From Acidiphilium sp. 37-60-79 (lineage in GTDB: Bacteria; Pseudomonadota; Alphaproteobacteria; Acetobacterales; Acetobacteraceae): a DNA stretch of 47,900 bases. The position numbers and the translations under genes are program-made. This document shows, piece by piece, positions 2,670-41,864 of this stretch. The notes below the pieces were generated by a model. It was not told the origin of the DNA, ran no database searches, and was given only the letters and a program-made list of their open reading frames with translations. Numbering within the stretch: position 1 is the stretch's first letter; every line of letters starts with the position of its first letter. The DNA is taken from positions 1 to 47,900 of the forward strand of contig NCBV01000029.1 in the NCBI GenBank assembly GCA_002279355.1, written 5' to 3'.

Positions 2670-2945
2670 ATGACCAAAACAGGCCAGATTGGATTTTCGC
2701 TCGCGCAATCATCATTCAACCCCGCAGACATCCGCGCAAACCGCCCAAACGCCACGATAATCGCTCACCAGCAGCGCTTGATCCGCGAAGCATACATGCG
2801 CGGCCTCTCAAGTTGGGTATCGCCCTCGCCGGACCAAGTCATGCCAACCTCGCTGCGCATGCGCCTCGGCTGCTTGGTCGGCGCCATGCTGATCACCGTC
2901 TTGACGTTCACCGGCCTGCTCTACCTCATCGGCGCCGCTCTCTAG
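2670..2945 (+). CDS. small membrane protein at the end of the psp operon, function unknown
   Basis: I do not recognise a family for this 91-aa protein. The first half is polar and contains a basic helix-like stretch (HQQRLIREAYMRGL, about residues 42-55). The C-terminal 25 residues form one transmembrane helix (LGCLVGAMLITVLTFTGLLYLIGAAL). The ATG at 2670 has a good AAGGAAA ribosome-binding site and is preferred over the ATG at 2640, which overlaps the pspC stop. It lies 23 nt after pspC, on the same strand, so it is probably the fourth gene of the psp operon. Position and size resemble extra small psp membrane proteins such as PspD, but I see no sequence match. Its stop codon TAG is the first three bases of repeat copy 1. 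Confidence 0.7.
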   Translation: MTKTGQIGFSLAQSSFNPADIRANRPNATIIAHQQRLIREAYMRGLSSWVSPSPDQVMPTSLRMRLGCLVGAMLITVLTFTGLLYLIGAAL

Positions 2946-3011
2946 TGTCCCGATTCTGAAATCCGTTGGATTTCGGAATCAGAGTGGACACTAGAAAATT
3001 CAATGATTTAG
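2943..3011 (+). repeat. MITE-like inverted-repeat element, copy 1
   Basis: This 69-bp copy is identical to 34011-34079. It begins TAGTGTCC and closes its first hairpin with GGACACTA (2986-2993); an inner stem (2952-2964 with 2968-2980) has a single mismatch. After the hairpin comes GAAAATTCAATGATTTAG, shared by all copies. The first TAG is the stop codon of the preceding gene. Compared with copy 3 the right-hand part is missing, so this copy looks truncated. It contains no ORF. Confidence 0.85.
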
Positions 3012-3022
3012 AGGAAAAATCG

Positions 3023-31866: not shown

Positions 31867-33693
31867 ATGGCCGGTTTATTCGACGATGATCCGCCGCCGC
31901 CGCCCCCAGGACCCTCCCTGTTCGGCGATGACCCCGCGCCCGAGCCAAACCCCGAATCCGCCCCCGCCTATCGCGTCCTCGCCCGCAAATACCGCCCCAC
32001 CCATTTCGATGATCTGATCGGCCAAGACGGCCTGGTCCGCACCCTGCGCAACGCCTTCGCGATGAACCGCATCGCCCATGGCTTCATGTTCACCGGCGTG
32101 CGCGGCGTCGGCAAAACCACCACCGCGCGCATCATCGCCCGCGCCCTCAACTGCATCGGTCCCGATGGCACCGGCAACGCCACCGCCGATCCCTGCGGCG
32201 TCTGCGCCAATTGCCGCTCAATCCTCGAAGACCGCCACCCCGACGTGATCGAGATGGACGCCGCCTCCAATACCGGCGTCGATGATGTGCGCGCGATCAT
32301 CGATGCCACCCAGTTCAAACCGATGATGGCGCGCACCAAAGTCTTCATCATCGATGAAGTCCACATGCTCTCGCGCAACGCCTTCAACGCCCTGCTCAAA
32401 ACCCTCGAAGAGCCACCCCCGCACGTCAAATTCATCTTCGCCACCACCGAAATCCGCAAAGTCCCGATCACCATCCTTTCGCGCTGCCAGCGCTTCGACC
32501 TCAAGCGCGTGCCCATCGAAACCCTCGCCGCCCATTTCGCGCGGGTCGCCGCCGCCGAAGCGATCACGATCGACCCCGGCGCGCTCGAGGCCATCGCCCG
32601 CGCCGCCGATGGCTCGGTGCGCGATGGCCTGTCGCTGCTCGACCAAGCCATCGCCCTTGGCCCCGATGCCACCACCATCACCAGCGACGCCGTCGCCACC
32701 ATGCTTGGCCTCGCGGATCGCTCCATCGTGTTCGACCTGATGGACGCCCTCGCCGCCGGCAACATTGCCCAAGCCCTCGGCGTGCTCGATCACGCCCATG
32801 ATAACGGCGCCGAACCTGGCCAGGTGATGCAGGATTTGCTCGGCCTGACCCATACGCTCTCACGGCTGAAATCGATCCCCGATCTCGCCACCAGCACCGC
32901 CCTGCCCGAACTCGAACGCACCCGTGGCCGCGCGCTCGCCGAGCAACTCTCGATCCCCTGGCTCGGTCGCCTTTGGCAAATGCTGCAAAAAGGCCTCGCC
33001 GACATCGATCAAGCGACCGACCGCCGCGCGTGCGCCGACATGGTGCTCATCCGCCTCTGCTTCGTCGCCGACGCCCCCACCCCCGGCGATCTGCTCCGCC
33101 ACCTGCGCGACTCCGCGCCCGCGCCCGCATCCACTCCATCCGCGCCCAGCCCCAACCCCGGCGGCAGCATGCTGCGCGCGGTAGCCAATGGCGCCCCGAT
33201 CATCAGCGCCGCACCCAACGCCCCACCCGCACCCGCTCCCCGCCCAATGCCCACCAGCTTCGAGCAAGTCGTCGCCCTCGCCCATGACCGGCGCGATATC
33301 CGCCTGCACGCCCATCTACGCCACGATGCCGGCCTGGTCCGTTTTGCGCCGCCCATCATCGAGCTAAACCTCGCCCCATCCGCCCCGCGTGACCTCGCCG
33401 CCCGGCTCGGCGCGATGCTGGAGCAGGAAACCGGCCGCCGCTGGACCATTGCCCTCTCCGCCGAAAAATCCGCCCTCAGCCTCGCCGCCGCCGAGGAGCA
33501 GGAAGCCACCAACGCCCATCAGCGTGCGAGCCAGCACCCGCTGGTCCAAGCCGTGCTCGCCGCCTTCCCCGGCGCGCGCATCGAAGCCCTGCACCGCCCA
33601 GATCCACCACAAGCCCTGGGGGCAGCACCCGTCCCCGGCGCCGATGACGAACCACCCACCGATGAGTCCACCCTCGATCAGGAGTATTCATGA
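31867..33693 (+). CDS. dnaX: DNA polymerase III subunit gamma/tau
   Basis: DnaX is the motor of the clamp loader of the replisome. The 608-aa product has the AAA+ region with Walker A GVRGVGKT (residues 77-84), a zinc-module cysteine cluster (C96, and C110/C113/C116 in CGVCANC), Walker [10 protein letters not shown], and sensor 1 with the arginine finger in [11 protein letters not shown] Pro/Ala-rich linker (about 415-460) and a C-terminal tau-like domain follow. The N-terminus carries an unusual acidic, Pro-rich extension ([17 protein letters not shown]). It overlaps ybaB by 4 nt. I see no obvious slippery heptamer for gamma synthesis. Confidence 0.96.
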
Positions 33694-34013
33694 AAAATCT
33701 CGCCGGCCTGATGAAGCAAGCCCAGCAAATGCAGCAAAAAATGCAGGATATGCAGGCCATGCTGGAAACGCTCGAAATTGAGGGCCAATCCGGCGCCGGC
33801 CTCGTGCGCCTAACGCTCTCCGGCAAAGGCGCGCTCAAACGCGTCGCCATCGACCCGAAATTGCTCGCCCCCGAGGAAGCCGAAACCCTGCAAGACCTGC
33901 TGATCGCCGCCCATAGCGACGCCCGCACCAAGCTCGATGCCGTCTCCGCCGCCGAAATGCAAAAAGCCACCGGCGGCATTTCGCTCCCCGAGGGCATGAA
34001 ACTCCCCTTCTAG
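33690..34013 (+). CDS. ybaB: YbaB/EbfC nucleoid-associated protein
   Basis: This 107-aa DNA-binding protein has the helical [20 protein letters not shown] start and the core [28 protein letters not shown], diagnostic for the family. It is translationally coupled to dnaX (4-nt overlap). In most bacteria recR comes next, but here the gene ends in repeat copy 2 (its TAG stop is the first three bases of the element), followed by a palindrome and a convergent operon. AGGAG precedes the start. Confidence 0.95.
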
Positions 34014-34121
34014 TGTCCCGATTCTGAAATCCGTTGGATTTCGGAATCAGAGTGGACACTAGAAAATTCAATGATTTAGTGGCCTGCTTATCCCTGAAAT
34101 TCATCTCAGAAAATTCAATGA
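34011..34121 (+). repeat. MITE-like inverted-repeat element, copy 2
   Basis: The first 69 bp are identical to copy 1. It then continues with TGGCCTGCTTATCCCTGAAA and TTCATCTCA, matching the right-hand half of copy 3, and ends with a second GAAAATTCAATGA in place of the right terminus. The opening TAG is the ybaB stop. There is no coding capacity. Confidence 0.85.
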
Positions 34122-34134
34122 CCCTTTGTTTGCC

Positions 34135-34188
34135 GATCAATATTCGTTTAGGTCGAATCGATCGATTCGACCTAAACGAATATTGATC
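34135..34188. repeat. perfect 54-bp palindrome between convergent operons
   Basis: The arms of 27 bp are exact reverse complements with no spacer, centred between 34161 and 34162; the arm begins GATCAATATTCGTTTAGGTC. It is AT-richer than its surroundings. It lies between ybaB/repeat copy 2 and the stop of the DUF4175 gene (34192). As RNA it would fold into a long hairpin from either strand, so a bidirectional terminator is possible, but no T tract follows. Confidence 0.9.
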
Positions 34189-40150: not shown

Positions 40151-40657
40151 ATGACGCCAACCCTCACGATTCGCGCGGCCCACGCCAACGACGCGCCCGC
40201 CCTGGCCGCCATCCGCAACCTGCCCAAAGTCCGCCACGGCACCCTGGCCATCCCGTTCAGCCGCCTCGCTGACACCGAATCCTACATCGCCAAACTCGGC
40301 GCCAATAGCCATCTGCTGGTCGCCGAGCAAAACGCCATCATCACCGGCTCCGCCTCGCTCGATCGCTATACGGGTCGCCGCGCCCATGTCGGCCATATCG
40401 GCGTTATGGTGGCCGATGCGCATCACGGCCAAGGCATCGGCACCGCCCTGCTCACCGCCCTGCTCGACCTCGCAGATCATTGGCTCGGGCTCACCCGCCT
40501 CGAACTCACCGTGTTTGCCGATAACAGCCGCGCCATCGCCCTCTATCACCGGCTCGGCTTCGTCCAAGAAGGCCATCTGCGCGACTATGCCCTGCGCGAC
40601 GGCGCCCTAGCCGACAGCCTCTCGATGGCCCGCCTGCGCCCGCCAATCACCCGCTAG
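40151..40657 (+). CDS. GNAT-family N-acetyltransferase
   Basis: This 168-aa acetyl-CoA-dependent acetyltransferase has the acetyl-CoA loop HHGQGIGTALLTALLDLAD and the C-terminal LELTVFADNSRAIALYHRLGFVQEGHLRDYALRDG, resembling the RimJ/RimL and putative diamine/amino-acid acetyltransferase groups. The substrate is unknown. It lies 5 nt after the tlpA-like gene. Its stop TAG is made by the left end of repeat copy 3; without the element the stop would be TAA. Confidence 0.88.
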   Translation: MTPTLTIRAAHANDAPALAAIRNLPKVRHGTLAIPFSRLADTESYIAKLGANSHLLVAEQNAIITGSASLDRYTGRRAHVGHIGVMVADAHHGQGIGTALLTALLDLADHWLGLTRLELTVFADNSRAIALYHRLGFVQEGHLRDYALRDGALADSLSMARLRPPITR

Positions 40658-40775
40658 TGTTCTGCCCCTGAAATTCATGAGATGAATTTCAGGGATAAGC
40701 AGGCCACTAAATCATTGAATTTTCTAGTGTCCACTCTGATTCCGAAATCCAACGAATTTCAGGGGCAGGACACTA
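40655..40775 (-). repeat. MITE-like inverted-repeat element, copy 3 (full length)
   Basis: This is a 121-bp element including flanking TA on both sides, inverted with respect to copies 1 and 2. The terminal inverted repeats are about 22 bp and imperfect: GTGTTCTGCCCCTGAAATTC and GAATTTCAGGGGCAGGACAC. Internal sequence matches copies 1 and 2 (GAAAATTCAATGATTTAG on the minus strand). The TA duplication and short GTGTYC ends resemble Tc1/mariner-IS630-type non-autonomous elements. Both ends provide TAG stops: for the GNAT gene on the plus strand and envZ on the minus strand. Confidence 0.85.
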
Positions 40776-41864
40776 AACCGGCAGCCCGATCCGCGCGCGC
40801 AGCCCGCCCAGCGGACTATCCTCCAACACCAGCTCGCCGCCATGCGCGGTGATAATATCCAGCGCAATCGCCAACCCCAGCCCCGTCCCCGCCGCCGAGC
40901 CGCTCTCGAACGGCCGCATCATCCGCGCCCGCCGATCCGCCGGAATCCCCGGCCCATCATCATCCACCACAATCCGCACCGCCCGCTCACCATCGCGCAT
41001 CGCCGCAATCCGCACCAAGCGCGCATGGCGCATCGCATTATCAAGCAAATTGCTCAGCACCCGCCGCATGCCCTCCGGTCGCAACAACACCATCGGCAAC
41101 GCGTCCACATCACTGACCACCCGCGCCCCGCCCTGCGCCTCACGCCGACGCCCCTGCGCCACCACCTCGCCAATCAGCATCGACAAATCAGTCGCCACCG
41201 GCTGCTCCTCCCCCTCGCCGCGCGCAAACTCCAAATAGAGCCGGATTAGCCGCTCCATCTCCTCAATATCGCGCTCCATCTCGGCGCGATCCGGCAATTC
41301 CTCCGGCAGCATCGCCAGCGCCAGCCGCAAACGCGTCAGCGGCGTGCGCAAATCATGCGAAACCCCGGCCAGCATCGCCGTGCGCTGCGCCAAAAACCGC
41401 CGCACCCGATCGCGCATCCGGTTAAACGCCGCCCCCGCACGCCGAATTTCCGCCGCACCCTCCGGGCGGATCGGCCCGGCATCGCGCCCCATCCCGAACG
41501 CCTCCGCCGCTCCCGCCAACCGCTTGATCCCGCGCACCTGATTGCGCAAAAACAGCGTCGCCAGCCCCAGCAGCAACATCGTCGTCCCCGCCAGCCAGGC
41601 AAAGAAAATGTAAAGCTGCCCCACGTAAAGCCGCTTGCGCGGCACATCCACCGTCAACACCCCGCCCGGCTCGGCAATATCCACCCGGATCATCCCCGGC
41701 GGCCCATGCCATACCAGCGCGAAGGGCCGCCCCAACCCGGTGCGCAGCGCCGCAATCAAATCCTGATCCACCGGCCCGAACGCATGCGGCGGCAATTGCG
41801 CCACAAATGGCCTCCCCGGATGCTCATGAAACGCAAACTCAAAGCGCATCCAAATGACTGCCAT
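40773..41864 (-). CDS. envZ: EnvZ-type sensor histidine kinase, main part of a frameshifted gene
   Basis: The open frame (363 aa) carries the end of a periplasmic sensor, TM2 (LYIFFAWLAGTTMLLLGLATLFL), a HAMP linker, the dimerisation helix with phospho-acceptor His (AMLAGVSHDLRTPLTRLRL), the N box (VLSNLLDNAMRHA), and the G boxes (VVDDDGPGIP; GTGLGLAIALDII). The kinase is intact. The beginning is not: TM1 and the start of the sensor are in another frame (41839-42006), and roughly 40 residues usual in this family between TM1 and TM2 appear to be missing. The ATG at 41864 has no clear ribosome-binding site. Without TM1 the kinase may be mis-inserted or not made. Operon marR-ompR-envZ. The stop TAG is formed by repeat copy 3. 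Confidence 0.75.
   Translation of the reverse strand: MAVIWMRFEFAFHEHPGRPFVAQLPPHAFGPVDQDLIAALRTGLGRPFALVWHGPPGMIRVDIAEPGGVLTVDVPRKRLYVGQLYIFFAWLAGTTMLLLGLATLFLRNQVRGIKRLAGAAEAFGMGRDAGPIRPEGAAEIRRAGAAFNRMRDRVRRFLAQRTAMLAGVSHDLRTPLTRLRLALAMLPEELPDRAEMERDIEEMERLIRLYLEFARGEGEEQPVATDLSMLIGEVVAQGRRREAQGGARVVSDVDALPMVLLRPEGMRRVLSNLLDNAMRHARLVRIAAMRDGERAVRIVVDDDGPGIPADRRARMMRPFESGSAAGTGLGLAIALDIITAHGGELVLEDSPLGGLRARIGLPV

Follow-up and report, generated by a model that had tools for sequence, protein, structure and literature searches.

A modular palindromic repeat family of the Acetobacteraceae, probably MITE-like, whose ends serve as stop codons of neighbouring genes

A short element without genes lies between two convergent genes in the window, the whole stretch of 47,900 nucleotides of Acidiphilium sp. 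37-60-79 (contig NCBV01000029.1) analysed here, and its two ends supply the stop codons of both (Table 1). It belongs to a repeat family that is dispersed in the genome, whose copies have common ends and a TA target, are missing from some of the corresponding sites in a sister species, and occur in excess at stop codons. We consider it probable that this is a non-autonomous, MITE-like element from a modular, palindromic family of the Acetobacteraceae, which inserts at TA, is harmless at stop codons and accumulates there for that reason. Placement at stop codons characterises the family as a whole, beyond the single copy between these two genes.

Table 1. Coordinates of the element, its parts, the flanking genes and the other copies in the window
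Feature	Position	Strand	Remarks
Gene-less element, 121 bp	40655..40775	.	Both outer TAs counted in
Unit A', 55 bp, imperfect palindrome	40655..40709	.	Asymmetric part GGGATAAGCAGGCCACTA
15-bp linker AATCATTGAATTTTC, joins unit A' to unit B	40710..40724	.	
Unit B, 51 bp	40725..40775	.	
TAG at left element end, stop codon of GNAT gene	40655..40657	+	
TAG at right element end, stop codon of histidine kinase gene (envZ)	40773..40775	-	
GNAT acetyltransferase gene	40151..40657	+	PF00583, 6.7e-19
Sensor histidine kinase gene (envZ)	40773..41864	-	HAMP, HisKA, HATPase_c
Second window copy: B unit, linker, broken A unit	34011..34117	.	
Third window copy: B unit and linker	2943..3014	.	

The element starts with TAGTGTTC and finishes with GGACACTA, its 29-nt arms have a complementarity of 86%, and the GTGTYC termini described in an earlier, sequence-only reading of this DNA are confirmed. 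The asymmetric part of unit A' is seen again across genera. The right arm of unit B is of the A type (TTTCAGGGGCAGGACACTA) in this copy, and of the B type (TTTCAGAATCGGGACACTA) in nearly all other composite copies listed. This is not a chance repeat: a blast search of the source genome gave 73 rows, palindrome self-matches counted, or 57 copy intervals after de-duplication, and the other copies are likewise flanked by TA. Among them are A-linker-B composites of 117–121 bp, lone A units, lone B units and broken copies. The TAG of the second window copy is the stop of a YbaB/EbfC gene (33690-34013), and that of the third is the stop of an ORF (2640-2945) without a Pfam family. Elsewhere in the genome, copy L220 (C59:90874-90924) also stops both genes of a convergent pair. 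The family thus has the short length, lack of genes, inverted ends and high copy number of a MITE. Six loci (L028, L216, L220, L386-L388) show ends of the form TAATGTCC in place of TAGTGTCC.

Removing the 121-bp element and one TA in silico gives the junction ATCACCCGC-TA-AACCGGCAGC, and, as the sequence-only reading had stated, both stops stay intact: the GNAT protein still ends in LRPPITR, and EnvZ, with 363 aa, in RARIGLPV. A natural counterpart of this junction exists in the sister species G009, the nearest relative, whose EnvZ protein is 96% and GNAT protein 84% identical. There, the two genes meet at GAC CCC TAA ACC, with a single TA and no element, and blast among the relatives found no copy of the element in the G009 genome. 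The GNAT gene of G009 stops at the same codon as in the source genome, which supports the view that the element entered the TA of this stop. The earlier proposal that this TA was common to both stops fares less well on its other half, as envZ of G009 stops 15 nt earlier; for this reason, the present envZ stop could predate or postdate the insertion. Two further clean empty sites were found in G009 (L005/L313 and L219/L316), so that TA duplication and empty sites, which are also MITE features, are seen at three loci.

The element would insert at TA, mostly within CTAG, and duplicate the TA. We take CTAG as the usual target because 23 of the 28 two-ended copies in the source genome are flanked by C and G. 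Outside the source genome, 30 of 40 two-ended copies have CTAG on both sides, and ten are uneven. Copies at CTAG cannot separate a 2-bp duplication of TA from a 4-bp duplication of CTAG, so the uneven copies are the informative ones. In all ten from other genomes the left 4-mer differs from the right one, as a 2-bp TA duplication predicts. The same applies to the window copy (CTAG/CTAA), L223 and L043, so that 13 of 15 uneven two-ended copies are unequal (3/5 in the source genome, 10/10 elsewhere), as expected for the TA duplication of IS630/Tc1-mariner elements. The two equal cases, L220 (CTAA/CTAA) and L028 (TTAG/TTAG), look like 4-bp duplications and raised the idea of an IS5-family transposase that duplicates CTAG or YTAA, with TGTCC...GGACA as the element proper. 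MITEPsy1 is reported to duplicate just these sequences (PMC3189936), and the source genome has DDE_Tnp_1 genes, two of them beside element copies (C30:23585 and C68:40815). With equal 4-mers in only two of the 15 uneven copies, however, a 4-bp duplication was set aside. Moreover, among eight DDE_Tnp_1 loci the motif GTGTCC occurs only at L393 and L394, both of which contain neighbouring element copies. An origin of the IS5 type is therefore decidedly unlikely.

In 22 of the 57 source-genome intervals an element end is the exact stop codon of a flanking gene, and in two of these, the window copy and L220, both ends are. In a sample of 848 kb picked by contig, 15 of 26 elements lie at a stop, compared with 7 of the 102 noncoding CTAG sites that are free of an element (p 5e-8). 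This count varies with strictness, the stricter one giving 12 of 26 (p 8.8e-6), and it rests on gene calls from a custom codon-model script, not a published gene finder, trained on the source genome only. The excess is strong between tandem genes (8/9 elements vs 3/56 free sites, p 2.8e-7) and not significant between convergent ones (7/14 vs 4/18, p 0.14). Occupancy of sites in relation to the stop is 12/19 at the stop itself, 5/16 at 1–30 nt, 3/15 at 31–100 nt, 1/21 at 101–300 nt and 5/57 beyond. Seen from the genes, element ends form 13 of the 103 TAG stops in the sample, and 11 of the 20 stops of the form C-TAG.

The same placement is found by a frame test that is independent of gene calls and in which inner units were dropped by their linker words. 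Of 73 coding frames entering an element end, 63 are stopped by the end's own TAG; at free CTAG sites, counted in the source genome only, this is true for 27 of 205 (Fisher 4.8e-30). By group, the numbers are 22/23 in the source genome, 8/9 in other Acidiphilium-type genomes and 33/41 in other genera. A further 108 ends have no incoming coding frame, and the ends that lack a gene still include a few inner units. The frame test also bears on the idea that the genes came to the element: copies would have landed near gene ends, old stops would have been lost, and the frames would have extended to the first TAG. Such run-on may apply to the envZ side of the 121-bp element, given the earlier envZ stop in G009. 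It predicts, however, that frames 1 and 2 are as frequent as frame 0, against the 63 in frame 0 and 10 in the others that were observed. Furthermore, of the 24 element ends that are stops, 22 were compared with G009 (L191 and L227 were left out), and in 17 of these the sister gene stops at the same codon position. As a general rule run-on is thus unlikely, and as the explanation of the family it is very improbable.

The 17 matching stops of G009 are TAG in eight cases, TAA in four and TGA in five. Since TGA holds no TA, the last five imply either a later change of the stop in the sister species or a more complex history. The five ends without a match are L193, L047, the right end of L220, the window copy at 2943 and envZ. 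We infer that the excess at stops comes from the survival of harmless insertions and not from aimed insertion. The first letter of the element is G and the last is C, so that a copy landing in the TA of a TAG or TAA would leave TAG on both strands. Within a coding frame, a stop would be the only place where an insertion costs the gene nothing, and copies would thus accumulate at stops and just past gene ends. Survival is the simplest reason for the excess.

Insertion could instead be aimed at stops or at the 3' ends of genes, for example through hairpin DNA or stalled complexes at the end of transcription, with several palindromic families competing for the same sites. Three signs point in this direction: the high share of C-TAG stops that are taken; the sites without the C, ten of twelve of which are at stops outside the Acidiphilium-type group (p 0.003); and the L220 locus, where G009 carries an unrelated palindromic repeat (TA-GAGCAAAATCC...) in that very stop. 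We nevertheless regard aiming as unlikely.

Other repeats were encountered at comparable places. At L054, G009 has a third kind (TAGATCAATATTGG...); the two G009 loci at which a different repeat occupies the stop codon that holds the element in the source genome are L301 and L310. In the 848-kb sample, palindromic repeats starting with AGAGC, GAGCG or ACCAATATTGG directly follow TAG stops (C8 24332, C59 8158, C75 21264, C33 108008, C59 5132 and C8 20521). A long palindrome of a different kind (gatcaatattcgtttaggtcgaat...) adjoins the second window copy at 34118-34180. One composite copy (L229 1617-1722; G000:C8 ~91617-91722) carries, nested in a TA of its linker, a repeat of a second palindromic family (GAGCAAC...AATGCTC), which also seems to duplicate TA, with G first and C last.

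As RNA, the element is predicted to fold strongly, with -51.4 kcal/mol (z -7.46) for the plus strand and -56.6 kcal/mol (z -8.46) for the minus strand. When unit A sequences from 15 sources are aligned, they show a hairpin with an asymmetric inner loop and 19 predicted pairs, in six of which both partners have changed. The hairpin is thus kept across genera, and occupancy declines with distance from the stop. These properties would suit a co-opted element, whose hairpins end or protect transcripts and which selection holds directly 3' of the stops. Symmetric transposon ends also change pairwise, however, so that the covariation is no proof of a role as RNA. No canonical terminator or promoter was found at the site of the element, and an Rfam search of six loci returned nine weak matches, every one below the gathering score. 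In addition, the element is absent from G009 in all 17 matching cases, and is therefore dispensable there. Taken together, co-option is rather unlikely in our view, and we continue with a MITE-like element that is tolerated at stops.

The family extends well beyond the source genome. The 20-nt element end, with up to two mismatches, is present in 28 of 200 Acetobacteraceae genomes, some of whose single matches may be due to chance, and the reversed pattern used as control in 1 of 200. A blast match was obtained in eight of 60 relatives, the source genome included in the eight. One plasmid record among 72,556 carries a relative, A. cryptum JF-5 pACRY01 (76.9%), and the exact 20-nt end is absent from the viral contigs searched. 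Two genomes (G093 and G103) contain tandem units with a common GCAGGCCACTGAAAACAAAG, and in G103 two copies stand 0.6 kb apart (L255, G103:C12), with genes ending at 744, 1430 and 1553 that stop inside element ends. The stretches from other genera cover part of the available material; in G093, for example, 20 of 53 end matches were used. A literature search, which largely lacked subscription journals, found no publication on this repeat family.

The element has no genes, and we infer that it is moved in trans by a transposase of the DDE type, for which an IS630-like enzyme would be the first guess. The sequence-only reading had likened the element to non-autonomous IS630/Tc1-mariner elements, and such a parentage was not borne out in the genomes searched, where neither DDE_3 genes, DDE_Tnp_1 genes nor pairs of ends led to a transposase with the element ends. 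The source genome has four DDE_3 hits, one of them above the cut-off, and none is bracketed by element ends. It has nine DDE_Tnp_1 hits, and at the eight loci checked (L399 was left out) no element ends surround the transposase. The two transposase genes beside element copies (G000:C30:23585-24037 and C68:40815-41345) are of the IS4/IS5 type; their distances to the copies are 131 and 534 bp, and the element ends do not bracket them. Y1_Tnp gave no hit in the source genome, with a control that was positive in 10 of 14 genomes; a Y1 transposase as in REP/RAYT systems was thus not found there.

Pairs of ends at the distance of an insertion sequence were also considered. Among 260 loci only L255 has such a pair (814 bp), and it was rejected as transposase-bearing because the genes within look ordinary by eye and not transposase-like. 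Another pair, on C26 (8094/9990), was likewise rejected as an insertion sequence; between its ends lie an NrsF gene and one that resembles a sigma-factor gene. The nearly closed genome G007 has no pair at this distance, so that a parental insertion sequence with the same ends was found neither there nor in the source genome. This absence is not final, because the source genome is a draft of 98 contigs from which a collapsed insertion sequence could be missing. The parent may also reside in another species.

A target that overlaps the stop codon, together with ends that rebuild the codon on both strands, would offer a mobile repeat a nearly cost-free route to colonise a dense genome. With 13 of the 103 TAG stops of the 848-kb sample formed by an element, the family influences the 3' ends of genes, the usage of stop codons and also annotation. 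The empty sites in G009 make it possible to separate aimed insertion from the survival of harmless insertions by experiment.

Several known systems share part of these properties. REPs are 20–40 bp long and have a GTAG head, and their associated transposases are Y1 enzymes. The Acetobacteraceae family differs from REPs in that it duplicates TA, and in that its source genome is without a Y1_Tnp hit. Repeat-supplied TAG stops are already in print for GTAG REPs, whose termini are reported to often give flanking ORFs a TAG stop (PMC3733652). Like our element, these are described as short palindromes that occur singly or as dimers, for the most part where neighbouring genes are convergent or co-directional (PMC3733652). 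RUP of Streptococcus pneumoniae is reported as a 107-bp gene-less repeat with a TA target, for which IS630-Spn1 is the proposed mover (PMC2229807). Lack of genes and the TA target are common to both families, whereas the Acetobacteraceae family has a modular build of two palindromic units, and no insertion sequence with matching ends was found for it; the available part of the RUP report (PMC2229807) does not mention stop codons supplied by the repeat. MITEPsy1 of Pseudomonas syringae, according to its report, is a 100-nt MITE with a CTAG or YTAA target, a 4-nt duplication and an IS5-type relative (PMC3189936). It resembles our element as a MITE with a CTAG target, and differs in its duplication, as the Acetobacteraceae flanks mostly fit 2 bp. 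Finally, the target of IS630 is given as the TA in 5'-CTAG-3' (Tenzen and Ohtsubo 1991, cited in PMC2170065). The element described here shares this target sequence and the TA duplication, but encodes nothing, whereas IS630 encodes its transposase.
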